64,000 nucleotides of DNA from NCBI RefSeq assembly GCF_019739195.1, contig NZ_JAHHDS010000003.1, positions 62,001 to 126,000 of the forward strand. Direction: 5' to 3'. The notes below the pieces were generated by a model. The model did no database searches, was not told where the DNA came from, and was given only the letters and a program-made list of their open reading frames with translations. This DNA comes from Microcella sp. GTDB taxonomy: Bacteria > Actinomycetota > Actinomycetes > Actinomycetales > Microbacteriaceae. Below, piece by piece: positions 10,559 through 37,688 of this stretch. Each line of letters begins with the position of its first letter. Position 1 is the first letter of the stretch. A program made the position numbers and the translations under genes.

Positions 10559-11812
10559 TCAGTCGCCCCCGCCGTTGGGCACGCTTCCGCGCCGAGGCGA
10601 AGGGTCGCGCAGCAGGGATGCCCGCTGCACGGCGCCGCGCCCGAACTTCTCTGCCAACGCGTCGATGGCTCCTTCGGCCTCGCGCCATCCCTCGTCGTCG
10701 TCCCACAGCCCACGCGCGACGGCGCCTGTCGGCAGCAAATTCTCGGCGCGCACGCCGATGAGTCGCAGGCCACGACCGACGACGGGCGACGCCGCATAGA
10801 GGGCGCGCGCTTCGGTCGCGATGCGCTGCGCGACATCCGTCGGCTCAGCGAGCGTCTGCGAGCGCGTGATGGTCTCGAAGTCGCCGAAGCGCAGTTTGAC
10901 CGAGACCGTGCGGGTCACCCAGCCGCCGCGACGCAGCCGTTCGGCGACCCGGTCTGCCAGTCGTAGCAGCTCGCGGTCGATCGTGGCGCGATCGGTGATG
11001 TCGCGCTCGAAGGTCACCTCGTGACCGATCGACTTTTCGAGACGTTCCGGAGTCACCGAGCGCGCGTCTCGCCCGTTCGCGAGAGCGTGCAGGTGCCCAG
11101 CATTGGCCGGCCCGAGAGCGCGGGTGAGGGCGTCGAGCGGTGCATCGGCCACATCGCCGATGGTGCGCAGGCCGAGCCTCTCGAGTCGTTGAGCTGAAGC
11201 CGCGCCGACTCCCCAGAGCGCCGTGACCGGCTGGGGGTGTAAGAAGTCGAGGGTCGCGGTCGCGGGCACGACGAGCAGGCCGTCGGGTTTGGCACGGCCC
11301 GACGCAAGCTTGGCGACGAACTTCGTCGAAGCGGCGCCGACCGAGGCGACGAGACCCGTCTCGGCGCGGATGCGCGCTCGCAGCGCCGTGCCGATCGCGT
11401 ACGGCGGCCCGAAGAGGCCGACCGCTCCCGCCACGTCGAGGAACGCCTCATCGATGCTGAGCGGCTCGACGAGAGGCGTCACGTCACCGAGAATGCCCAT
11501 GACCGCGCTCGACGCCGCGGTGTAGCGCTCGTAGTGCGGTTCAAGCACGACCGCGTGCGGGCAGCGTCGCAGAGCGACTGCCATCGGCATGGCCGAGTTG
11601 ACGCCGTAGCGACGGGCTTCATAGGTGGCGGCAGTGACGACGGAGCGGGCCCCGCGGTGTCCCACGATGACGGGGTGACCGCGCAGCTCGGGCCGGTCGA
11701 GCAGCTCGACCGAGGCGAAGAAGGCGTCCATGTCGAGGTGCAGAATGTGCGCGCTGAGGTCAGCGGTCGGGGTCGAGGTGACCAGCCGACCGCTACCGTC
11801 TTGCTTGCTCAT
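10559..11812 (-). CDS. dinB: DNA polymerase IV (Y-family, DinB)
   Basis: A 417-residue translesion polymerase. The catalytic motifs are intact: LDMDAFFASVE with D27 and D29, and PLSIDEAFLDV with D121 and E122. Palm, fingers, thumb with helix-hairpin-helix (RLERLGLRTIGDVAD) and little-finger domain (SKxQTLAEPTD-like region) follow in order. The frame stays open far upstream, but the ATG at 11812 gives the normal DinB N-terminus. Its leader can form a long-range inverted repeat ending two bases before the start. It is the catalytically competent Y-family member of this window, in contrast to ImuB. Confidence 0.93.
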   Translation of the reverse strand: MSKQDGSGRLVTSTPTADLSAHILHLDMDAFFASVELLDRPELRGHPVIVGHRGARSVVTAATYEARRYGVNSAMPMAVALRRCPHAVVLEPHYERYTAASSAVMGILGDVTPLVEPLSIDEAFLDVAGAVGLFGPPYAIGTALRARIRAETGLVASVGAASTKFVAKLASGRAKPDGLLVVPATATLDFLHPQPVTALWGVGAASAQRLERLGLRTIGDVADAPLDALTRALGPANAGHLHALANGRDARSVTPERLEKSIGHEVTFERDITDRATIDRELLRLADRVAERLRRGGWVTRTVSVKLRFGDFETITRSQTLAEPTDVAQRIATEARALYAASPVVGRGLRLIGVRAENLLPTGAVARGLWDDDEGWREAEGAIDALAEKFGRGAVQRASLLRDPSPRRGSVPNGGGD

Positions 11813-11814
11813 GA

Positions 11815-11880
11815 CGAACGCCCCACGCGGCCATCCTGTCACCGTGCGCTGACGGTCGGCAGAGACGCGAGGGGCGTTCG
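11815..11880 (-). promoter_or_regulatory. Inverted repeat covering the dinB translation start region
   Basis: Ten-base perfect arms CGAACGCCCC (11815-11824) and GGGGCGTTCG (11871-11880) are separated by 46 bases. The intervening bases contain a smaller ACCGT/ACGGT stem (11841-11856). In a transcript reading into dinB the G-rich arm ends two bases before the ATG and contains the only plausible ribosome binding sequence. The structure could therefore sequester it. It could alternatively act as a terminator for the GlsB-like gene upstream on the same strand, although no T-run follows. Confidence 0.45.
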
Positions 11881-11895
11881 CGGTGCGGATGAGAC

Positions 11896-12153
11896 TTAGC
11901 GCTTGCGGGTGATGAGGCCCCACACGAGAATCACCAGAATCGAACCGCCGATGGCCAGCAACCAGGTGCCGATGCTGAAGAACTCGTCGACCGAGCCCAG
12001 ACCGAGCAGACTGCCGATCCAGCCGCCGACGAAGGCGCCGATGACACCCAGGATCAGGGTCGAGATCCAGCCGCCACCCTGCTTGCCCGGCAAGATCGCC
12101 TTCGCGATGGCGCCGGCGATGAGGCCGAGGAGGAGGAATGCGAGAAAGCCCAT
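11896..12153 (-). CDS. GlsB/YeaQ/YmgE family membrane protein
   Basis: An 85-residue protein with three hydrophobic helices and the family's Gly-rich pattern (LLLGLIAGAIAKAILPGKQGGGW, then GVIGAFVGGWIGSLLG). These are transglycosylase-associated, stress-related inner-membrane proteins whose biochemical role is unknown. A strong AAAGGAG ribosome binding site precedes the ATG. It is transcribed toward dinB with an 83-base gap that holds the inverted repeat described separately. Confidence 0.9.
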   Translation of the reverse strand: MGFLAFLLLGLIAGAIAKAILPGKQGGGWISTLILGVIGAFVGGWIGSLLGLGSVDEFFSIGTWLLAIGGSILVILVWGLITRKR

Positions 12154-12214
12154 GGGCTTCTCCTTTCGTTGGGGTGTTCCACTGTGGCACAGCGTGCGCG
12201 GGGGGCGATAGGTC

Positions 12215-12223
12215 TGACAGGCT
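12215..12223 (+). promoter_or_regulatory. Extended -10 box of a probable leaderless promoter (SGNH hydrolase gene)
   Basis: TGACAGGCT reads as TGn plus a weak -10 (CAGGCT). It ends six bases before the ATG at 12230. If used, the earlier in-frame ATG at 12224 would lie upstream of the transcription start. Confidence 0.3.
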
Positions 12224-12229
12224 ATGGCT

Positions 12230-12997
12230 ATGCCTCAGCTTCACCCGTGGTCGCGCTACGTGGCGATCGGCGACTCGTTCACCGAGGGCATCGGAGACCC
12301 CGAGCCGCAGAGCCCCGGGGGCACCCGCGGCTGGGCCGACCGCGTGGCCGAGGTGCTCGCCGAGCGCACCGAAGACTTCGCCTACGCGAACCTCGCGATT
12401 CGCGGTCGCCTCCTGCAGCAGATCGCTGACGAGCAGGTGGATGCTGCGCTCGCGCTGCGCCCCGACCTCATCTCTATCTCGGGCGGAGGCAACGACATCA
12501 TCCGGCCGGGCACCGACCCCGACCAGGTGGCTGAGCTGTTCGATGACACCATCGGCCGACTGCGGTCGAACGGCGCCACGGTCGTCATGTTCAACGGCCC
12601 CGACATCGGCATGACCCCGGTGCTGCGTCGCGTGCGCGGCAAAGTCGCCATCTACAACGAGAACCTGCGCTACGTCGCAGCCAAACACGACGCGATCGTC
12701 GCCGACATGTGGGCGTTGCGCCAGCTCAAGAACCCGCAGATGTGGGCGCCCGACCGCCTGCACTTTTCTCCCCTGGGCCACCACACGATCGCGATCATGA
12801 CGCTTGACGCTCTCGGTGTCGCGCATGATCTTGAACCCCTGCACCCCGAGCCTCTGCCGGTGCGCTCGTGGCGCTCGGCGCGCGGCGATGACATGGGGTG
12901 GGCGCGTGAGTACCTCGTGCCGTGGGTGGTCAGGCGCATTCGCCACCAATCGTCGGGTGACCTCGTGCGCCCCAAGCGGCCGACTCTGCCGGACTAA
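12230..12997 (+). CDS. SGNH/GDSL family hydrolase
   Basis: A 255-residue cytoplasmic esterase-like protein. SGNH blocks are visible: I with GDSFTEGIGD (catalytic Ser), III with SGGGNDI, and V with DRLHFSPLGHH (catalytic Asp and His). No signal peptide is seen, so an intracellular ester or acyl substrate is likely but unidentified. Two in-frame ATGs (12224 and 12230) are possible; I prefer 12230 because of the weak -10 six bases before it. The 3' end shares four bases (CTAA) with the convergent carboxypeptidase gene, leaving no room for a terminator. Confidence 0.88.
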   Translation: MPQLHPWSRYVAIGDSFTEGIGDPEPQSPGGTRGWADRVAEVLAERTEDFAYANLAIRGRLLQQIADEQVDAALALRPDLISISGGGNDIIRPGTDPDQVAELFDDTIGRLRSNGATVVMFNGPDIGMTPVLRRVRGKVAIYNENLRYVAAKHDAIVADMWALRQLKNPQMWAPDRLHFSPLGHHTIAIMTLDALGVAHDLEPLHPEPLPVRSWRSARGDDMGWAREYLVPWVVRRIRHQSSGDLVRPKRPTLPD

Positions 12998-14244
12998 CCG
13001 ACACCGAGCGCCGCGATGAGCTCCTTGAGGGGCTGCGCGAGACGCCAGTCGAGCGGTGGTTCGTTGATCGTCCCGATCCATTGCAGAGGCACGCGCACGC
13101 GCTCACTGGCATAGCGCACCTCGAGAGTCGGCTCGTCGTCGACGTCCACTCCGGGCTGCAGGTCAGACGCCCGCGCTGACACGACCGACACCATCTCGCC
13201 CCACACCACGTCGTCTACCCCGCTGGCGGTGCGCACCTCGGCGATGTCGCCCCACGGAGAGGTATAGCGCGCGACAAGTGAACCTTCAGGGACCAGCTCT
13301 ACCTCGTGGTAGTCGTCGCGCACGCTCAGCAAGAGCGCTCGGGCGTCTGCGGCGACGCGCGGTCCGTCAGGGCCGTTCAGCACGACGCCCACGACTCGAT
13401 GCTCGCCGGTCGGCCCCGCGTGCTCGGCCGAGAAGAGCAGCGACGAGCCCGAGGCACGCAGGGTGCCTGTTTTCAGCCCGGAGACTCCGTCGACGCCGAT
13501 GATCAGGTTGCGGTTCTCGAAACTGCCGATGCCAGGCACCGCGACGCGGGGCAGCGCGGCAGCGGCAGCGACCACCGGATCAGCCGTGGCGATGCGAGCG
13601 AGCCGCAGCAGTGAGCGCGGGCTCGCGCGATTCTCGGGCGAGAACCCGGTCGTATCTGCGACGCTGATGCCCATCAGGTCGTTCTCATCGAGCCAGCTGC
13701 GAGCCGCAGATAGGTAGGCGTCGACCGAACCGAATGCCCATACCGCGAGCGTCTCGGCATAGTTGTTCGCCGAGTGCACCATCATGAGCTCGATGACTGC
13801 CCGCTGGGTGATCGTGCCGCCGGCCGGAGCCGGTGCCGTCGTGCCGTTGATGGCCGCGTACCGCGAGACGAGTCGGCTATCGGCTGCGGTCAAGGTGAGG
13901 GTCGCACCGTCGGTTCCCGCTTCCATCGGATGCTCGTGCAGCACCACGAGCGCCGTGATCACCTTGGTCAACGAGGCGATCGGACGCGGCGTGTCGACAT
14001 CGACGCCGGCGAAGAGATGATCACTCTCGGCATCGCCGATCGCACTGCCGCCGTAACTCGGCAGCGCGACTTCGGCAGCAGGCGTCGCGACGGTCTCAAG
14101 CTCGAGCATCTGCGGCTCGATCGGCTCGAGCGGGGCCAGCAGCGCGAAGCCCGCGTAGGTCGAGGCCGCCAGCACCATTGCGGTGACGGCCGCAGCCGCT
14201 ACCGCACCCGCCCGTCGTCGCCGGACCGTCTGCGCCTCTGTCAT
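12994..14244 (-). CDS. D-alanyl-D-alanine carboxypeptidase (peptidase S11)
   Basis: A 416-residue penicillin-binding protein of low molecular mass that trims the terminal D-Ala of peptidoglycan stem peptides outside the membrane. An N-terminal Arg-rich segment and one hydrophobic helix (about residues 13-37) form a signal anchor. The three active-site motifs are present: SLTK from S91, SAN at 158-160, and KTG at 258-260. The C-terminal domain after about 310 resembles the beta-rich PBP5-type tail. It starts 16 bases after the lacI-type gene on the same strand and may be co-transcribed with it, though the functions are unrelated. Confidence 0.92.
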   Translation of the reverse strand: MTEAQTVRRRRAGAVAAAAVTAMVLAASTYAGFALLAPLEPIEPQMLELETVATPAAEVALPSYGGSAIGDAESDHLFAGVDVDTPRPIASLTKVITALVVLHEHPMEAGTDGATLTLTAADSRLVSRYAAINGTTAPAPAGGTITQRAVIELMMVHSANNYAETLAVWAFGSVDAYLSAARSWLDENDLMGISVADTTGFSPENRASPRSLLRLARIATADPVVAAAAALPRVAVPGIGSFENRNLIIGVDGVSGLKTGTLRASGSSLLFSAEHAGPTGEHRVVGVVLNGPDGPRVAADARALLLSVRDDYHEVELVPEGSLVARYTSPWGDIAEVRTASGVDDVVWGEMVSVVSARASDLQPGVDVDDEPTLEVRYASERVRVPLQWIGTINEPPLDWRLAQPLKELIAALGVG

Positions 14245-14260
14245 CGCCTGTCGAACACCA

Positions 14261-15283
14261 TCACGCCGAGTGGCGCCAAACGATCTCCGTGGGCAGCATC
14301 ACGCCCTGATCGGTCGGTGCGCCCGAGCGCACCTGCTCGAGCACGAGTTCGGCGGCCCGCGCGCCGAGCTGGCCGGCGGGCTGGCGCACCGTCGAGAGCT
14401 CGGGTTGTGCTCGATGCGCCCACGAGCTGTCGTCGAAGCCGATGATGCCGACGTCTGCGGGTACCGACCGACCAGCCGATCTCAGAGTCTCCATGGCTCC
14501 CGCCGCGACCGCGTCTGAGGCCGCGAACACGCCGTCGATGTCGGGGGCGATCTCGAGCAGCTCGCGCATGCCGGCCACTCCTGCCGCATAGGTGTAGAAG
14601 CGTTGCTGCGAGACGAGAGCGCTCTCGAAACGGGCACCGAGAGCATCCTGAAACCCGGCCAGGCGATCGCGGCCGCTGTCGCGATCGAGGCCAGCAGCGA
14701 CCATGCCGATGCGACGACGGCCCGTGGCCATCAGGCGCGAGGTGATCTCGCGGGCGGCCCCTCGGTTGTCGATGCCGACCCAGGGCAGCTGAGGCTGGTT
14801 GTCGGGTCGACCGATCATCACGGCGGGCAGACGCAGATCGGCGATGGCTTGCGAGATGGGGTCGCCCTCGCGCGCGGAGACGATGATGGCCCCGTCGACG
14901 AAGCCGCCGCCGAGGTACCCCGTCACGCGTTCAGAGTCGCGGTCGGTGTCGATCAGCAACGAGACGAGCTGATAATCGGCAGACGAGAGCGCCGCGTTGG
15001 CGCCGAGCAGAATCGCCCCGATGTTCGGGTCGTCGATAAAGACCGAGTCGGGCTCGTGCACGATGAGCGCGATCGCCCCGGACGACTGCTTGGCGAGATT
15101 ACGGGCGGCCGTGTTGCGCACGTATCCGACTTTCGCGATCGCGGCCTCGATCGCTTCTCGAGCAGCTGCTGAGACGTAGGGTTCGCCGTTCAGCACGCGC
15201 GAGACCGTGCCTCGCGACACGCCCGCTTCTGCCGCCACGTCAAAGATCGTGGCGCGCTTGAGTCGGGTCAACGAATCGGACAC
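14261..15283 (-). CDS. LacI-family transcriptional regulator of the galactoside locus
   Basis: A 340-residue repressor. The N-terminal helix-turn-helix is typical of LacI (TIFDVAAEAGVSRGTVSRVLNG), with the minor-groove hinge at AARNLAKQSSG. It is followed by a periplasmic-binding-protein-like ligand domain (FAASDAVAAGAME, GIIGFDDSSWA). It is divergent from the beta-galactosidase operon, whose promoter carries a perfect palindrome. The natural inference is local repression relieved by a galactose-containing inducer. The GTG start has TACACT six bases upstream, so its own mRNA is probably leaderless. Confidence 0.92.
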   Translation of the reverse strand: MSDSLTRLKRATIFDVAAEAGVSRGTVSRVLNGEPYVSAAAREAIEAAIAKVGYVRNTAARNLAKQSSGAIALIVHEPDSVFIDDPNIGAILLGANAALSSADYQLVSLLIDTDRDSERVTGYLGGGFVDGAIIVSAREGDPISQAIADLRLPAVMIGRPDNQPQLPWVGIDNRGAAREITSRLMATGRRRIGMVAAGLDRDSGRDRLAGFQDALGARFESALVSQQRFYTYAAGVAGMRELLEIAPDIDGVFAASDAVAAGAMETLRSAGRSVPADVGIIGFDDSSWAHRAQPELSTVRQPAGQLGARAAELVLEQVRSGAPTDQGVMLPTEIVWRHSA

Positions 15284-15289
15284 GCGCTC

Positions 15290-15295
15290 AGTGTA
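15290..15295 (-). promoter_or_regulatory. -10 box of a probable leaderless promoter (lacI-type gene)
   Basis: On the minus strand TACACT is followed by six bases and then the GTG at 15283. It lies about 75 bases from the operator, so direct autorepression through that site is not obvious. Confidence 0.45.
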
Positions 15296-15341
15296 ACCAG
15301 GCGGCGAGGGGGCCGACGGTGGCGCACCGGTCGACGAAGTG

Positions 15342-15369
15342 TTGACAGGAGCGCGATGGTCTGTCTACT
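15342..15369 (+). promoter_or_regulatory. Promoter of the galactoside utilisation operon
   Basis: A perfect TTGACA (15342-15347) is followed by a 16-base spacer and TCTACT (15364-15369; four of six matches to TATAAT). This is the best sigma-70-type promoter in the window. The transcript would have a leader of about 110 bases before the beta-galactosidase start at 15485. Confidence 0.75.
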
Positions 15370-15385
15370 CTGTGAGCGCTCACAG
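15370..15385. promoter_or_regulatory. LacI-type operator, perfect 16-bp palindrome
   Basis: CTGTGAGCGCTCACAG is identical on both strands. Its central GCGC and flanking GTGAGC/GCTCAC are the usual LacI-family operator style. It abuts the -10 element and covers the expected transcription start, so binding would block RNA polymerase. Confidence 0.85.
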
Positions 15386-15484
15386 AAAACCCACCCGGGC
15401 AACAGGTCACATCGATCTGTGCACGCTCCCAGGGGAGGGGGTTCGGAGCAACGACGATGTTGACCCGCCCCGGAAGGACGGACT

Positions 15485-17524
15485 GTGACCACTCCCCTGA
15501 CCCTCAGCAGCGAGCTGACGCTCGTGCCGGGCTGGGCGACGGGCACGATCACCCTCGGCTGCGACTACAACCCCGAGCAGTGGGATGAGGCGGTCTGGCA
15601 CGACGACATCGCCCTCATGTGCGAACTGGGCGTCGACCTGGTCGCCATCAACATCTTCGGCTGGGCGCAGCTGCAGCCGAAGCCCGGCCCCTTCGACTTC
15701 AGTCGCCTCGATCGCATCATCGAGCTGCTGCACGCAGCCGGAATCCGCGTGAATCTCGGCACGGGCACAGCCTCGCCGCCTCCGTGGCTCGCGCGCCTGC
15801 ATCCCGAGACGCTGCCGCAGGCCGCCGACGGCACCGTCGCGTGGCCCGGGGGGCGACAGGCATGGTGCCCGAGCTCTGCGGTCTTCCGGCAGAGGGCGCT
15901 CGAGCTCGTCACCGCCATGGCCGATCGTTTCGGCTCTCACCCCGCTGTGGCGCTGTGGCACGTGTCGAACGAGCTGGGCTGCCACAACGCGTTGTGCTAC
16001 TGCGACGAGTCGGCGATGGCGTTCCGCACCTGGCTGCGCGCCCGGTACGGCACCCTCGAGAACCTCAACGCTGCGTGGGGCACGGCGTTCTGGAGCCAGC
16101 GCTACGGGGTGTGGGAAGACGTGCTGCCGCCCCGCACCACGCGTTCAGCAGGCAACCCGGCGCAGCTGCTCGATTTCAAGCGCTTCTCCTCCGACGCGCT
16201 GCTCGAGTACTACCGGGCCGAGGCTGCCGTGCTGCGCGAGCGCTCAAAGGCTCCCGTCACCACGAACCTCATGGTCACGGCGCACATCCAGACGCAGAAC
16301 TACACCGACTGGGCGCCAGAGCTCGACCTCATCGCCAACGACCACTACCTCGACCACCGTCTCGCCGACCCACTGGCCGAGCTGGCGTTCAGCGCCGACC
16401 TCACGCGCGGGCTCGCGCAGGGAGGGCCGTGGATGCTCATGGAGACCTCGACGAGCGCCGTCAGCTGGCAGCCGGTCAATCACGCGAAGCGCGAGGGCGA
16501 ACTGGTGCGCACGGCACTGGGACACGTGGCCCGCGGTGCTGACTCGATCTGCTTCTTCCAGTGGCGGGCATCGCGCAGCGGCGCGGAGAAGTTCCACTCG
16601 GCACTGCTGCCGCACAGCGGAACGGCCGGAGAGGGCTGGGCGCAGAGCATCGAGCTCTCAGCACTGCTCGACAGGCTTACCCCGGTGGTCGGCTCGCGCG
16701 TTCACGCGCGCGCTGCTCTCGTTTTCTCGTGGGAGGCGTGGTGGGCCGCGGAAGGCGACTCGCAGCCGAGCAGCCTGCTGCGCTACCTGCCCGAGGCGCA
16801 CCGCTATCACCGCGCCCTGCGCGCCCTGGGCGTGACTGTCGATCTCGTCGCGCCGAACGCCGAGCTGTCGGGCTACAACCTGGTCGTCGTGCCGACCCTC
16901 TACACGCTGACGGATGCTGAGGCCGCGTCGATCGCGCACGCCGCCTCGACCGGCGCCACCGTGCTGGTCACGCCCTTCAGCGGCATCGTCGACGAGAGCG
17001 ACGCGATCCGCCTCGGCGGCTACCCCGGCGCCTTCCGCGATTTTCTCGGGCTCACGATCGACGAGTTCCGTCCGCTCGCCGCCGAGGCCACCGTGACACT
17101 CTCCTCCGGTGCGCGCGGCAGCATCTGGAGCGAGTCGGTGCGCGTGGCCGATGCCGAGGTGATCGCGACCTTCGTCGACGGGCCGGCCGCAGCATCCCCC
17201 GCTCTGACGCGTCGGGCTGTCGGCTCGGGCGCCGCGTGGTACACCGCGACCATGCTCGACGACGACGGGCTGCTCGCCCTGTTGCGCCGCTTGTGCGCTG
17301 ACTCCGACGTTCCGATCGTCGAGGTGGGTTTCGATGTCGACATCGTCACCAGGCGTTCGCCTTCCGCCGACTTCACCTTCATCATCAATCATCGCGACCT
17401 GCCCCTCACGGTGCCGGTCGCGGGTCTCGACCTGGTCTCGGGCGAGACGGTCGATGACGCCACTCCGCTAGCCGGCGGCTCGGTGCGCGTCGTCATGTCA
17501 GAGAGGAGCGATCGTGGCGCGTGA
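15485..17524 (+). CDS. Beta-galactosidase, glycoside hydrolase family 42
   Basis: A 679-residue cytoplasmic GH42 enzyme that hydrolyses terminal beta-galactosides. The TIM barrel begins with LGCDYNPEQWDEAVW. The acid/base glutamate is E163 in HVSNELG, and the nucleophile is E320 in LMETSTS. A Cys cluster (CHNALCYC, just after residue 165) matches the zinc site seen in several GH42 enzymes. A trimerisation and a small beta domain complete the length. The start is GTG. It is the first gene after the operator and overlaps the first permease gene by 11 bases. There is no signal peptide, so the substrate must be imported by the neighbouring ABC system. Confidence 0.94.
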   Translation: MTTPLTLSSELTLVPGWATGTITLGCDYNPEQWDEAVWHDDIALMCELGVDLVAINIFGWAQLQPKPGPFDFSRLDRIIELLHAAGIRVNLGTGTASPPPWLARLHPETLPQAADGTVAWPGGRQAWCPSSAVFRQRALELVTAMADRFGSHPAVALWHVSNELGCHNALCYCDESAMAFRTWLRARYGTLENLNAAWGTAFWSQRYGVWEDVLPPRTTRSAGNPAQLLDFKRFSSDALLEYYRAEAAVLRERSKAPVTTNLMVTAHIQTQNYTDWAPELDLIANDHYLDHRLADPLAELAFSADLTRGLAQGGPWMLMETSTSAVSWQPVNHAKREGELVRTALGHVARGADSICFFQWRASRSGAEKFHSALLPHSGTAGEGWAQSIELSALLDRLTPVVGSRVHARAALVFSWEAWWAAEGDSQPSSLLRYLPEAHRYHRALRALGVTVDLVAPNAELSGYNLVVVPTLYTLTDAEAASIAHAASTGATVLVTPFSGIVDESDAIRLGGYPGAFRDFLGLTIDEFRPLAAEATVTLSSGARGSIWSESVRVADAEVIATFVDGPAAASPALTRRAVGSGAAWYTATMLDDDGLLALLRRLCADSDVPIVEVGFDVDIVTRRSPSADFTFIINHRDLPLTVPVAGLDLVSGETVDDATPLAGGSVRVVMSERSDRGA

Positions 17525-18410
17525 CACTGCCGTCAAGGCCTCGAACGCCGTCAGTCACAAGAAGGCGCTCGCCGTCTTCCTCATCCCCTTCGGGTCGCTG
17601 TTCGTGCTCTTCTACCTCGTGCCGATCCTGTACGCGATCTATCAGTCGCTGCTGACGGTCGAGCGCGAGGGCACCTTCGGCCCGGCGGTGCAGGTCTTCG
17701 GCGGGTTGACCCAGTACATTGCGGTGTTCCAGAACGAGCCGTTCTGGGCATCCATCGGTCGAGTGCTGCTCTTCGGGGTCGTGCAGGTGCCTGTGATGCT
17801 CGGCGTCGCGCTGCTCCTGGCCCTGCTACTTGACTCGCCTCTCGTGCGGGGCACCAAGTTCTTCCGCCTCGCGTTCTTCGCGCCCTACGCCGTGCCGAGC
17901 GTCATCGCGGCGATCATGTGGGGCTTCCTCTACTCACCCAACCTGTCGCCCTTCACGGCGGTGACGTCGACCGTCGACTTCCTGTCGGCTGAGACGGTGC
18001 TGTGGTCGATCGCCAACGTCGTCACGTGGGTGTATGTCGGCTACAACATGCTCATCATCTACTCAGCCCTGCTCTCGATACCTCAAGAGATCTACGAGGC
18101 GGCTCGACTCGACGGCGCGGGCCAGTTCCGCATCGCGTTCTCGATCAAGATCCCCCTCGTGGTGCCCGCTCTCGTGCTCACGGGCATCTTCTCGATCATC
18201 GGCACGCTGCAGCTGCTCGCCGAGCCGCAGGTGTTCCAGAGCTTCTCGAACGCCGTCACGAGCACCTTCACCCCCAACCTCACGATCTACTCCACCGCGT
18301 CGGTGCCGAACATCAGCCTCGCCGCCGCCATGTCGGTCGTGCTCGCACTGGCGACCTTCGTGCTCTCGTTCACCGTGCTCAAGCTCACGCAGCGGAGGAC
18401 CACATCATGA
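17514..18410 (+). CDS. Sugar ABC transporter permease, MalF/UgpA type
   Basis: A 298-residue inner-membrane subunit with about six hydrophobic helices. The EAA loop that docks the ATPase is visible as YEAARLDGAGQFRIAFSIKIPLV near residues 195-217. The GTG start has GAGAGGAG just upstream and overlaps the beta-galactosidase stop by 11 bases. Its own stop overlaps the next permease as ATGA. With the second permease and the lipoprotein downstream it forms a CUT1-type oligosaccharide importer. No ATP-binding subunit is encoded here, so a shared MsiK-like ATPase is expected elsewhere. Confidence 0.93.
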   Translation: MARDTAVKASNAVSHKKALAVFLIPFGSLFVLFYLVPILYAIYQSLLTVEREGTFGPAVQVFGGLTQYIAVFQNEPFWASIGRVLLFGVVQVPVMLGVALLLALLLDSPLVRGTKFFRLAFFAPYAVPSVIAAIMWGFLYSPNLSPFTAVTSTVDFLSAETVLWSIANVVTWVYVGYNMLIIYSALLSIPQEIYEAARLDGAGQFRIAFSIKIPLVVPALVLTGIFSIIGTLQLLAEPQVFQSFSNAVTSTFTPNLTIYSTASVPNISLAAAMSVVLALATFVLSFTVLKLTQRRTTS

Positions 18411-19315
18411 CCGAATCGACTGACACCCGCACGCTGCGCACGCAGGGCGCGAAGAAGCCCGCTCGCGACGGCGGCATCCGCGAGAGCGCGGTGTCGCGCA
18501 CGGTCGCCATGGCGGTCATGATCGTGGCCACGCTGTACTTCTTGACGCCGCTCTGGTGGCTGCTCGTGGCCTCGACCAAGACCCGCAGCGACTTCACCAC
18601 GACGAACCCGCTCTGGTTCGCCGACTTCGCTCTGTTCGACAACATCGCGGCGCTCGTGACCTACCGTGACGGAGTCTTCCTGCAGTGGCTCGCCAACAGT
18701 GCGCTCTACGCGGGAGTCGGAGCACTGCTGGCTACGCTCTTCGCCGCGATGGCCGGTTACGCGATCGCGAAGTACACCTTCCGTGGTCGCGAGACGCTCT
18801 TCAACGTCATCCTCGGCGGCGTGCTCGTGCCCGCCACTGCGCTCGCCCTGCCGCTCTTCCTGCTCTTCAGTCAGGCCGGTGCGACGAACACCATCTGGGC
18901 CGTGCTGCTGCCGAGCCTGGTCAGCCCCTTCGGCGTGTACCTCTCGCGCATCTATGCGGCCGCGAGCGTGCCCGACGAGATCATCGAGGCAGCACGCATC
19001 GACGGCGCCGGCGAGGTGCGCACCTTCTTCACCGTCGCGACGCGCCTCATGGCACCTGCGCTCGTCACGATCTTCCTCTTCCAGTTCGTGGCGATCTGGA
19101 ACAATTTCTTCTTGCCGCTCATCATGCTGCGCGACGAGAACTTGTTCCCTGTCACGCTCGGCCTCTACGTCTGGAACACGCAGGTCAGCCAGATTCCCGA
19201 CATCCGCGCGCTCGTCGTCATCGGGTCGCTGCTGTCGATCATCCCCCTCATCGTCACCTTCCTCGCGCTGCAGCGGTTCTGGCAGTCGGGGTTGGCGAAC
19301 GGCGGTCTCAAGTGA
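18407..19315 (+). CDS. Sugar ABC transporter permease, MalG/UgpE type
   Basis: A 302-residue partner permease with a short hydrophilic N-terminus and six hydrophobic segments. The EAA loop reads IEAARIDGAGEVRTFFTVATRLM. The ATG at 18407 sits in an ATGA overlap with the preceding stop and has AGCGGAGG upstream, so translation is coupled and subunit stoichiometry kept equal. It is followed by a 77-base spacer containing a stable hairpin before the binding-protein gene. Confidence 0.93.
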   Translation: MTESTDTRTLRTQGAKKPARDGGIRESAVSRTVAMAVMIVATLYFLTPLWWLLVASTKTRSDFTTTNPLWFADFALFDNIAALVTYRDGVFLQWLANSALYAGVGALLATLFAAMAGYAIAKYTFRGRETLFNVILGGVLVPATALALPLFLLFSQAGATNTIWAVLLPSLVSPFGVYLSRIYAAASVPDEIIEAARIDGAGEVRTFFTVATRLMAPALVTIFLFQFVAIWNNFFLPLIMLRDENLFPVTLGLYVWNTQVSQIPDIRALVVIGSLLSIIPLIVTFLALQRFWQSGLANGGLK

Positions 19316-19329
19316 GCCGCCGGCAGGCC

Positions 19330-19350
19330 CTCGACCGCAGCGCGGTCGAG
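19330..19350 (+). repeat. Intercistronic hairpin between permease and binding-protein genes
   Basis: CTCGACCGC and GCGGTCGAG form a perfect nine-base stem with a three-base loop. No T-run follows, so it is unlikely to terminate transcription. Its position, just upstream of the ribosome binding site of the lipoprotein gene, fits an RNA-stability element that raises binding-protein expression over the permeases. Confidence 0.55.
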
Positions 19351-19392
19351 CGGAGCACCACCACCAGCACCACCAACCGAAAGGAACACAGC

Positions 19393-20721
19393 ATGGCGAT
19401 CACGCGATTCGCGCGTGCGGGGGCCGTTGCGGCCATCTCCGCGCTCGCACTCACGGCCTGCGCGACCGGCGGCACCGACGCCCCCGGCGCGAGCGGCGAC
19501 TGCGCTCCCTCTGACGGACCGGTCACCCTGACCTTCACGAGCTGGCTGCCCGGCGTCGAAGAGGCCGTGGCGATTTGGAACGACGAGAACCCCGACATTC
19601 AGGTCGAGGTGCAGACCGGCCCCAACGGCAACGGCGGCACCTACCAGAACTTCTTCAACCAGCTCGCGGCCGGCAACGCGCCCGACCTGGGTCAGATCGA
19701 GTTCGACGCGATGCCGAACTTCCGCGTGCAAGACGGGCTCGAGAACATCGCGGCCTGCAAAGGCATCCTCGAAGCAGAAGACCAGTTCGTGGGCTGGACC
19801 TGAAGCCAGGTCACCTTCGGCGAGGAGAACGCGGTCTACGCGATTCCGCAAGACACCGGCCCCATGGCCATGTTCTACCGTGCTGACCTCTTCGAGGCTG
19901 CGGGCATCGCGATTCCGACCACGTGGGAGGAGTACGAGGCAGCAGCCGTGCAGATCCGTGAGCAGGGCGGTTACATCAACAACTTCTCGCAGAGCGACAT
20001 CAACGCCTTCGCAGGCCTGGTGTGGCAGGCAGACGGCCAGTGGTTCTCGAACGACGCCGACGGGTGGACGGTCGACCTGACCGGTGCCGAGACCACTCAG
20101 GTGGCCGAGTACTGGCAGGGCCTGATCGACAACGACCTCGTCGCGGTGTACCCGCCGTGGACCGACGAGTGGAACGCCGCGTACAACTCGAGCGAGCTGT
20201 GGACCTGGGTCTCGGCCGTCTGGGGTGCCAACACCATCGCGAGCGGTGCGCCCGACACGGCCGGCAACTGGGCAGTCGCCCCGATGCCGCAGTGGGAGGC
20301 CGGCGCGAGCGCAGCGGGCAACTGGGGTGGCTCGACCACCGCCGTGCTCAAGGGCTCTGACCACCCGTACGAGGCCGCGCAGTTCGCTCTGTGGCTGAAC
20401 ACCGATGCTGACGCGCTCACGGCGATGAACCGCACGGCGAACATCTACCCCGCCACGATCGAGGGCGCCAACCTGCCCGCGTTCTCGGAGGGTGTGGAGT
20501 TCTACGGCGGTCAGAACATCTACGAGGTGTTCGCCGAGGCCGGCAACAACGTCAACCCCGACTTCACGTGGGGCCCGACGATGACGCAGGTCTACAACGA
20601 TGTCGCCGACGGCTTCTCCGGAGCCGTCTCGGGCAACGGTACGCTCCTGGAAGCCCTGACCGCCGGTCAGGCCTCCACGATCGCAGCCCTCAAGGCGGCC
20701 TCGATTCCCGTCAAGGAGTAG
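19393..20721 (+). pseudogene. Sugar ABC transporter substrate-binding lipoprotein, interrupted by an in-frame TGA
   Basis: The frame encodes a 442-residue CUT1 solute-binding protein. A lipoprotein signal peptide has its lipobox Cys at residue 23 (ALTAC). The body follows: LTFTSWLPG, the binding cleft, and a C-terminal AQFALWLN region. At codon 137 (19801-19803) the frame holds TGA between GWT and SQVTFGEE. After it the same frame continues with clear homology (AVYAIPQDTGPMAMFYRADLF). A Trp codon (TGG) is expected there, so one G-to-A change explains the break. As read, only 136 residues would be made and the importer would lack a receptor. Possible explanations are a true nonsense mutation, a base-calling error or stop readthrough. 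The ribosome binding site (AAAGGAA) is good. Confidence 0.85.
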
Positions 20722-20723
20722 GT

Positions 20724-22853
20724 ATCTCGCTTCTCCACCTCCGTGCCGCGGGTGTCAGCTTCGTGCTCGACGCCCGCGGCACGGCCGTGCCACGGCTCGC
20801 GCACTGGGGTCACGACCTCGGATCGGTCGAGCCGCTCATGCTCGAGCAGGTGGCGACCGCACTACCCGCGGTCGCCCCCAGCTCGCCTGATCTGCCACTC
20901 GTGCCGTCGATTCTCGCCGGCCCCGCAGAGGGCTGGAGCGGGTTCCCGGCTCTCATCGCCCACCGCTCGGCCAGCGGGCCCGCCCGCCTGCCGCTGCGCA
21001 TCCGTCGCACCGGGCTGTCACAGCTCGATGAGAGTTCCGTGTCGATCGAGCTGGTCGTGCACGACGACGACGGCCCCTTGCTCACGGTCGGCTGGCACGC
21101 CCGGCTGACGCCCCAGGGCGTGCTCGTCATCGGCCTGGATGCCCGCGCCGAGGCCCCCGAAGGCGTCGAATTGCATCGCCTCGCAGCGACCTTGCCGGTT
21201 CCCGCACGAGCGAGCGACCTGCTCGACTTCACGGGCGTCTGGGCGGGCGAGCGGATGCCGCAGCGGGGTGCCGTGCGCGACGGCTTGCACCTGCGCGACC
21301 AGCGTCGAGGCCGCCCCGGCCACGACGCGCCCTTTCTCACCGTGCTCGGCACGCCCGGCTTCGGCTTCCGCTCCGGCGAAGTGTGGGCGATGCACCACGC
21401 CTGGAGCGGCAACAGCACGACGGGCGTCGAGTCGCTGCCAACGGGCCACCGCCGCCTGCTCGCCACCGAGCTGCTCGACCCGGCCGAGGTCGTGCTGGGT
21501 AAAGGCGAGACCTACACCGCGCCCGAGACCATGCTTGCCTGGTCGAGCGAGGGCCTCGACGGCCTGAGCGACCGCCTGCACCCTTTCGTGCGCGCCCTGA
21601 CTCCCCCGACGCACCGGCCGGTCGTGCTCAACACCTGGGAGGCGGTCTACTTCGACCATGCCCTCGAGTCGCTGCTGCCTCTCGTCGATGCCGCGGCGGA
21701 TCTCGGAATCGAGCGTTTCGTGCTCGACGACGGCTGGTTCACGGGCCGCACCGACGACCGCCGCGCTCTCGGCGACTGGACGGTCGACCCTGAGCGCTGG
21801 CCCTCCGGCCTGCACCCGCTCGCCGACGCGGTTGTCGCCCACGGCATGGAGTTCGGGCTGTGGGTCGAGCCCGAGATGGTGAGCCCCGAGTCGCGGCTCG
21901 CGCGCGAGCATCCCGAGTGGATGCTCGCCGAAACGTCCACGGAGACCGAGACCCACCATCCCCCTACCTGGCGCTTTCAGCACTCCCTCGATCTGACCGT
22001 GCCTGCCGCGCGGGGCCACGTGCTCGAGGCGCTCAGCGCGCTGCTCACCGAGTACCCCATCGCCTTTCTCAAGTGGGACCATAACCGCGATCAGCACGCA
22101 GGCACCGCAGCGGCTCACACTCGAGCCGTCTACGGGCTCATCGACGACCTCACCGCCCGTTTTCCGCACGTCGCCATCGAGAGCTGCGCATCGGGTGGCG
22201 CGCGCGTCGATCTGGGCATGGCGAGCCGCGTGCACCGCTTCTGGACGAGCGACACCAACGACGCTCTCGACCGCCAGCGCATCCAGCGGTACAGCGGGCT
22301 GCTCATGCCGCCCGAGATGATGGGCGGCCACGTCGGCGCCCCGCGCGCCCACATCACGGGTCGCACGCACGACCTTTCGTTCCGGCTCGCCACGGCGATT
22401 TTCGGCAGCGCGGGCATCGAGTGGAACATCACGACGGCCGATGCCGCCCAGCTCGACGCGCTGCGCGAGTGGGTCGCGACCGTCAAGCTGCTGCGCCCGC
22501 TGCTGATCTCGGGTCGCACGGTGCGCACCGACGAAGCAGTCGACGACCGCTACGTGCACGGACTTGTCGCCCCAGACGACGCTGAGGCCTTGATCGCCCT
22601 CGTGACCCTCGCGACGGCGCCGGTGTCGGTGCCCCCGCCCCTGCGGTTTCCTGGGCTCGACCCCGACCGTCGCTATCGCATCGAACCACTCGCGGTCGGC
22701 GGGGCGCCGCGCACGGTGCAGGATTCTCCCCCCGCGTGGCTCGCCGAGGGCGGCATCACGATCACGGGCCGCCTGCTTGCCGATCTCGGGCTGCCCGTGC
22801 CACTGCTCGCGCCCGAGCAGGCCCTGCTGCTGCGCGCGATCGCGGTCGACTAG
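20724..22853 (+). CDS. Alpha-galactosidase, glycoside hydrolase family 36
   Basis: About 709 residues, the normal GH36 length. The N-terminal beta-supersandwich begins LLHLRAAGVSFVLDARG. The catalytic barrel has the nucleophile D452 in FLKWDHNRD and the acid/base D510 in WTSDTND, preceded by SCASGGARVDLG. It removes alpha-1,6-galactose from melibiose, raffinose and related sugars. The start is unusual: no ATG, GTG or TTG lies where the N-terminus should begin. The best-placed codon is ATC at 20724, five bases after AAGGAG. The next usable codon, GTG at 20763, would remove thirteen residues including the first strand. It follows the binding-protein stop by two bases. Confidence 0.9.
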   Translation: MSLLHLRAAGVSFVLDARGTAVPRLAHWGHDLGSVEPLMLEQVATALPAVAPSSPDLPLVPSILAGPAEGWSGFPALIAHRSASGPARLPLRIRRTGLSQLDESSVSIELVVHDDDGPLLTVGWHARLTPQGVLVIGLDARAEAPEGVELHRLAATLPVPARASDLLDFTGVWAGERMPQRGAVRDGLHLRDQRRGRPGHDAPFLTVLGTPGFGFRSGEVWAMHHAWSGNSTTGVESLPTGHRRLLATELLDPAEVVLGKGETYTAPETMLAWSSEGLDGLSDRLHPFVRALTPPTHRPVVLNTWEAVYFDHALESLLPLVDAAADLGIERFVLDDGWFTGRTDDRRALGDWTVDPERWPSGLHPLADAVVAHGMEFGLWVEPEMVSPESRLAREHPEWMLAETSTETETHHPPTWRFQHSLDLTVPAARGHVLEALSALLTEYPIAFLKWDHNRDQHAGTAAAHTRAVYGLIDDLTARFPHVAIESCASGGARVDLGMASRVHRFWTSDTNDALDRQRIQRYSGLLMPPEMMGGHVGAPRAHITGRTHDLSFRLATAIFGSAGIEWNITTADAAQLDALREWVATVKLLRPLLISGRTVRTDEAVDDRYVHGLVAPDDAEALIALVTLATAPVSVPPPLRFPGLDPDRRYRIEPLAVGGAPRTVQDSPPAWLAEGGITITGRLLADLGLPVPLLAPEQALLLRAIAVD

Positions 22854-36969: not shown

Positions 36970-37688
36970 TGGCCCATACCCAACCCGCCGTCGACGGGGA
37001 TGACGGCTCCGCTGATGTACGCGGCGTCGTCGCTCGCGAGCCACGTCACGACGCGGGCAACCTCGGTAGGAGTCGCGAAGCGGCCAGCGGGGATCGACTG
37101 CTGGTACGCCTTCTGCTGGTCCTCGGGCAGCGCAGCCGTCATATCGGTCTCGATGAAGCCCGGAGCAACCACGTTCGCGGTGATGCCGCGCCCGCCGAGC
37201 TCGCGCGTGAGCGACCGGGCCATGCCGACGAGTGCCGACTTCGAGGCGCTGTAGTTGACCTGACCCGCCGAGCCGTAGAGGCCGACGACGCTCGAGATGA
37301 GGACGATGCGGCCGAAGCGAGCCTTCAGCATGCCCTTCGAGGCGCGCTTGACGGTGCGGAAGGCGCCCGTGAGGTTCGTGTCGATGACGTCGGTGAAGTC
37401 GTCGTCGCTCATGCGCATGAGCAGCATGTCGCGGGTGATGCCGGCGTTGGCCACGACGACCTCGACCGGGCCGAGTTCGGCCTCGACGGTCGTGAACGCC
37501 GCGTCGAGGGAGGCGGAGTCGGTGACGTCGGCCTGCACGGTGAGCGAGCCTTCGGGGCCGCTGCCTGAGCGTGCGGTGACGGCGACCCGGTGGCCTTGCG
37601 CGATGAACTCTTCGGCGATCGAGAAGCCGATGCCGCGGTTGCCGCCGGTGACGAGAACGGTGCGGGGGGAAGACGTACCTGGGGTCAT
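36966..37688 (-). CDS. fabG: 3-oxoacyl-[ACP] reductase family SDR
   Basis: A 240-residue short-chain dehydrogenase. The cofactor motif is VLVTGGNRGIGFSIAEEF, followed by NAG in VVVANAGITRDM. The catalytic residues are Ser in LISSVVGLYG and Tyr-x3-Lys in YSASKSALVG. PGFIETDMTAALP and DGGLGMGH at the C-terminus match FabG. It would reduce 3-oxoacyl-ACP with NADPH in fatty acid elongation. The ATG at 37688 has TATGCT eight bases upstream. Confidence 0.9.
   Translation of the reverse strand: MTPGTSSPRTVLVTGGNRGIGFSIAEEFIAQGHRVAVTARSGSGPEGSLTVQADVTDSASLDAAFTTVEAELGPVEVVVANAGITRDMLLMRMSDDDFTDVIDTNLTGAFRTVKRASKGMLKARFGRIVLISSVVGLYGSAGQVNYSASKSALVGMARSLTRELGGRGITANVVAPGFIETDMTAALPEDQQKAYQQSIPAGRFATPTEVARVVTWLASDDAAYISGAVIPVDGGLGMGH

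Follow-up and report, generated by a model that had tools for sequence, protein, structure and literature searches.

An in-frame TGA at a conserved tryptophan codon of a sugar-binding lipoprotein gene in Microcella sp.

The operon and its interrupted receptor gene

The stretch of DNA analysed here (the window, 64,000 nucleotides) corresponds to positions 62001-126000 of contig 3 in a genome of 2,880,602 bases, which is assembled in 4 contigs and estimated to be 100% complete. It contains a group of genes whose layout suggests galactoside uptake and intracellular hydrolysis. The features are listed below with their Pfam matches and, where calculated, their dN/dS against the nearest relative (G005):

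14261-15283, minus strand: LacI-type regulator (LacI and Peripla_BP_3; dN/dS 0.053)
15485-17524, plus strand: GH42 beta-galactosidase (Glyco_hydro_42, 469.9 bits; dN/dS 0.154)
17514-18410, plus strand: MalF-type permease (BPD_transp_1; dN/dS 0.031)
18407-19315, plus strand: MalG-type permease (BPD_transp_1; dN/dS 0.015 from 18419 on)
19393-20721, plus strand: sugar-binding lipoprotein gene, interrupted (SBP_bac_1, 99.5 bits; 21 genus orthologues without a stop)
19801-19803, plus strand: in-frame TGA at codon 137 (from translation and a whole-genome search; TGG in 29/29 and 80/80 related loci)
20724-22853, plus strand: GH36 alpha-galactosidase (Melibiase with GH36 N and C domains; dN/dS 0.131; probable AUC start at 20724-20726)

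Translation of 19393-20721 on the plus strand gives a single frame of 443 codons that closes with a TAG at 20719-20721. Its sole internal stop is the TGA at 19801-19803, codon 137 of 442, preceded by ...FVGWT and followed by SQVTFGEE..., with the frame unbroken on either side. The same lone internal TGA was recovered in a whole-genome search, bearing out the first-pass annotation, which had described a TGA here with an intact reading frame on both sides. With the TGA read as Trp, the protein aligns to the 21 other genus orthologues over residues 1-442 (6-442 in one) at 75-98% identity, and none of these 21 contains a stop codon. Because stop-free orthologues match the read-through protein in this way, the open frame on both sides of the TGA is not a product of chance. 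An ATG-started ORF of 285 amino acids lies downstream of the TGA, at 19864-20721. A genome search found no close second copy of the receptor; the four other matches are 24-39% identical and mostly partial.

Read with Trp at codon 137, the protein matches the SBP_bac_1 profile (PF01547) across residues 55-339, at 99.5 bits against a cut-off of 26. Two MalF/MalG-type permease genes, both with BPD_transp_1 matches, lie alongside it (17514-18410 and 18407-19315), as is characteristic of CUT1 importers; the second starts, judging from the sequence, at an ATG overlapping the stop of the first. The closest solved relatives by sequence are 7vfq (E 1.1e-46), 2z8d (E 2.4e-45) and 6h0h (E 2.1e-33). An AlphaFold model of the receptor (mean pLDDT 68.8) recognises the family but is too weak to place Trp137; its top Foldseek matches are again 2z8d and 7vfq, at about 27-29% identity. 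Together with the GH42 and GH36 neighbours, these structural relatives point to galactosides as the predicted ligands.

The importer had been described as otherwise complete. The other operon genes are indeed open and under constraint, but the genome profile search found no ABC_tran match between 14261 and 22853 (the nearest in the window is at about 30808), and "complete" is therefore too strong. CUT1-type transporters can share an ATPase that is encoded away from the operon, and given the absence of an ABC_tran match within 14261-22853, the ATPase of this importer is probably such a shared one.

Codon 137 in relatives and the state of the assembly

Codon 137 was compared in two sets of loci, which share several genomes and whose counts are not additive. 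The first comprised 34 loci: the window's own copy, 29 others aligned across codon 137, and four weak matches from the same genome (L002-L005), which gave no match at E 1e-20 and were left out of the count. TGG occupies the codon in all 29 related loci that span it (21 belong to the same genus) and in all 80 loci of the second set, which are the best 80 of the 324 named loci found. The alignment of relatives' homologues proposed in the first-pass annotation thus returns TGG wherever the site is covered. A close receptor orthologue is present in 22 of the 26 genus genomes, with the stop only in the window's genome. Only 16 of the 19 high-quality genus genomes have such an orthologue, leaving three without, and the receptor gene therefore seems dispensable in the genus. 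A gene naturally split at this point in relatives was rejected; no genus relative was found split and no stop occurs in the 80 named loci.

In an alignment of 32 rows, the first being the window's protein read with the TGA as Trp, Trp137 is invariant throughout the receptor subfamily. The expectation of a Trp here in CUT1 binding proteins consequently holds for the subfamily (where TGG is found in 29/29 and 80/80 loci) but not for CUT1 proteins at large; 7vfq, the closest solved protein by sequence, has Phe at the aligned site. Orthologues at 84-98% identity come from Microcella, Yonghaparkia, Pseudolysinimonas yzui and several metagenome-assembled Microbacteriaceae or other Actinomycetota and, going by these names, the host is a member of the Microcella clade.

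The window was scanned for internal stops by aligning it to the ORFs of seven relatives (of eight, G017 was left out) at no less than 85% amino acid identity over at least 100 residues. This replaced a wobble-phase scan, whose 355 stops were too noisy because the genome is GC-rich and antisense frames share the phase, and stops listed in wrong-frame ORFs were likewise discarded in its favour. The 97 resulting alignments cover 15,671 distinct window codons, which fall into 33 stretches of at least 80 codons. Stops appeared at five places, and only the one at 19801 was judged to lie inside a conserved gene, flanked in five relatives by 40 residues on each side at 90-98% identity. The others (18667, 23737, 29963 and 45597) were rejected as internal stops, each being judged a wrong-frame extension, a position before the gene start or a natural end. 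Of 135 relative ORFs (match of at least 80%), a single one had its match divided between frames; the stretch in question was interpreted as a divergent promoter carrying an over-extended ORF. Since the conserved part of the window holds no other internal stop and only this one ORF is split, the assembly looks clean. Further afield, no internal stop was found in the genome's 85 ABC_tran matches or its 15 other SBP_bac_1 matches, a sample of its genes.

Elsewhere in the window, at about 10559-13081, an ORF of 840 amino acids on the minus strand overlaps a plus-strand ORF (12224-12997) with ~92% identity to a segment of an ORF in a relative, and either strand could be coding.

The codons past the stop still look constrained. 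Compared with G005, the receptor has dN 0.0117, dS 0.293 and dN/dS 0.040 after the stop, and dN/dS 0.019 before it, alongside the values listed above for the other operon genes. When changes were polarised with five outgroups, the part after the stop showed 5 synonymous changes and 3 non-synonymous ones (the latter confined to two codons) on the window's branch, and the part before it 2 and 1, all small counts; on the G005 branch the figures were 11 and 3 after it and 2 and 0 before. No relaxation of selection after the stop is seen among the 8 polarised changes on the window's branch, which are too few to speak for or against it. The persisting constraint (dN/dS 0.040) suggests that the stop is either recent or not real, and both fit the pattern equally well. 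We also saw no decay elsewhere in the operon, either in dN/dS against G005 or in the stop scan against relatives. The absence of visible degradation noted by the first-pass annotation is confirmed, as the other genes are open, constrained and without further internal stops, and its view of a recent event looks right on the same grounds.

The start of the alpha-galactosidase gene

In the window, none of ATG, GTG and TTG occurs close to the start of the GH36 gene (start region 20709-20765). The receptor gene ends in AAGGAGTAG; GT comes next and then an ATC at 20724-20726, so that two bases separate it from the receptor's stop. A Shine-Dalgarno-like AAGGAG for the GH36 gene sits in the receptor's last codons. 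We considered whether the apparently missing start codon was a second lesion, but this was rejected, as relatives have the same ATC or ATT.

The 22 genus loci, window included, reach ~1.5 kb past the receptor and show the GH36 gene in part. In 21 of them, an ATC (16 loci) or ATT (5 loci) precedes the Arg codon of a conserved LRAAG/IRAAG by exactly 18 bases and follows the receptor's stop at a distance of two to five bases. The entire open stretch upstream is free of canonical starts in 14 of these 21; in the other seven it has only GTG, at least 174 bases before the Arg codon. The exception among the 22 is G003, which has no GH36 match and only a remnant. In this genome (Microbacteriaceae bacterium X2B, locus L064) the GH36 gene is gone, and an N-terminal remnant follows an intact receptor gene from about 11330; the same operon is thus being trimmed in another member of the genus.

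The best 80 of the 324 named loci extend the comparison beyond the genus: 61 of the 80 have a GH36 match, and the N-terminus could be aligned in 60. Where the receptor is at least 84% identical (15 loci), ATC or ATT is always found at -18 and a canonical start is always absent from the 45 bases examined. Outside the clade, 42 of the 45 remaining aligned loci have ATG, GTG or TTG within 45 bases; in two Cryobacterium loci (L125 and L134) the only canonical start lies at -48, and in L071 there is none. Exactly at -18, a GTG, TTG or ATG is found in Cryobacterium, Actinoplanes, Sanguibacter, a Cellulomonadaceae record and Pseudarthrobacter (L118, L128, L100, L105, L119 and others). AUC or AUU is accordingly the probable GH36 start codon. 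Alternatively, the gene could start at an internal GTG, which lies seven codons (17 of the 21 genus loci) or fifteen codons (the other four) past the Arg codon; against this, a conserved in-frame peptide precedes that GTG. The clade may share a non-canonical GH36 start that is coupled to the receptor gene's end.

Five Salinibacterium loci (L072-L076) were classed as canonical solely for a TTG at -39; they too have an ATC, at -12, immediately ahead of the conserved N-terminal peptide. Non-canonical GH36 starts may not be limited to Microcella.

One study has reportedly examined translation initiation from all 64 codons. Among the titles listed by general literature searches, none reported AUC or AUU starts in this gene, which is weak evidence. 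The putative start is more unusual than the receptor's nonsense codon. Gene callers using only AUG, GUG and UUG would miss or mis-trim a gene with such a start throughout the clade, and it would offer a natural test of weak starts aided by translational coupling.

Mutation, error or misreading

The reading we favour, with reasonable but far from complete confidence, is a recent single-base nonsense mutation at the conserved Trp codon: a G-to-A change at its third base (19803) would have turned TGG into TGA. Translation would then end after residue 136 of 442, leaving a useless truncated receptor and an importer that no longer works for want of it. Ribosomes lost at codon 137 might also cut synthesis of the alpha-galactosidase, since its Shine-Dalgarno-like AAGGAG lies in the receptor's last codons and its probable AUC start two bases past the receptor's final stop. 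Any decay of the operon, if real, would have only begun, as the rest is still intact. In kind the change is not odd: at 37,229 positions otherwise invariant among relatives, G>A is the commonest class of window difference (219 of 889).

The main rival is that the base is wrong, whether by a mistake in the consensus or assembly or because the sequenced culture or population contained a minority variant, with the gene intact in the organism. We consider this a real, if clearly less probable, option. A private change without other decay is what an error would look like; however, the conserved part of the window holds no other internal stop and only 1 of the 135 relative ORFs is split, giving the assembly its clean appearance. 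The sequence context also bears on both readings. The intact codon 137 and its neighbours form a CCTGG motif, and systematic error at the CCWGG methylation motif was considered. First counts were small, and a strict test with fully invariant motifs yielded only 2 CCTGG and 4 CCAGG cases and was uninformative. In a comparison with a control, summed over eight relatives that are not independent of one another, a G in the relative faced an A in the window at 45 of 551 motif positions versus 4,739 of 113,075 elsewhere; the reverse (A in the relative, G in the window) was found at 28 of 517 versus 4,010 of 112,147, with the same eight relatives summed. G-to-A differences are thus commoner in the motif than elsewhere in both directions, and because the excess is present in relatives too, the position looks like a mutable site, which fits as well as an error does. 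The mild forward surplus (45/551 versus 28/517) leaves some room for a motif-linked base-calling error.

It is improbable that UGA is read as Trp often enough to give a working receptor, so that the stop would only throttle its synthesis. Of the E. coli stop codons TGA leaks most, and Trp, the very residue lost here, is what is mostly inserted at it; an earlier E. coli study cited in the same paper reported up to 14% read-through (PMC11126739). Constraint also persists past the stop. On the other side, no relative compared has the TGA, and the following base is an A, which is neither the G that favours read-through nor the T that opposes it (PMC11126739). The genome offers no suppressor tRNA among those typed. 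Of its 46 tRNA matches, ARAGORN typed 45 (the last is cut off by a contig end), among which there is a single tRNA-Trp gene, with anticodon CCA, and no UCA anticodon. RF2 is present (481.3 bits against a cut-off of 370), and the genome search put SelB at 195.5 bits against 242.25 and tRNA-Sec at 42.8 against 47, both under their cut-offs, the best tRNA-Sec hit falling on a tRNA-Ser gene. Reassignment of UGA to Trp was rejected on the CCA-only tRNA-Trp, the presence of RF2 and the lack of other internal stops in the sampled genes, and selenocysteine insertion on the sub-threshold SelB and tRNA-Sec; a general code change is very unlikely on this combined evidence.

Occasional misreading of the UGA by tRNA-Trp, as published E. 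coli work would suggest, could still yield a small amount of normal receptor, which is plausible though unsupported here. A bolder version, in which misreading at a useful rate tunes down the receptor and, via coupling at the probable AUC start, the alpha-galactosidase, strikes us as highly improbable; if true, the misread UGA would act as a volume control set by one base, and the gene would not be dead. That the gene now yields two pieces, the second restarting at the ATG at 19864 of the 285-residue ORF, is barely credible, as no genus relative was found split there, the 80 named loci lack a stop, and the second piece would be missing the first third of the protein as well as the lipoprotein signal sequence.

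Among the three options offered by the first-pass annotation, point mutation is thus best supported and base error is possible, but useful read-through is without positive support. Whether freshly broken or wrongly sequenced, the receptor gene calls for caution when galactoside use is predicted from this genome.

The receptor's nearest known counterparts are CUT1-type sugar-binding lipoproteins: the bifidobacterial galactoside receptors GL-BP (2z8d) and GltA (7vfq), and the beta-1,6-galactobiose-binding protein 6h0h. The window's gene differs from them in being interrupted and in having a predicted ligand, and 7vfq has Phe where the window's subfamily has Trp. With the known forms of UGA recoding (Trp-reading codes and selenocysteine), the window shares an in-frame UGA at a Trp position; unlike them, it shows this in only one gene among those sampled, with RF2 present, no UCA tRNA, and SelB and tRNA-Sec under their cut-offs. 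The finding itself is an ordinary one of a kind already known, namely either a base error or a nonsense codon private to a single genome. It most resembles a recent nonsense pseudogene, with one private premature stop, absent from the orthologues, in a gene that is otherwise intact and constrained in relatives.
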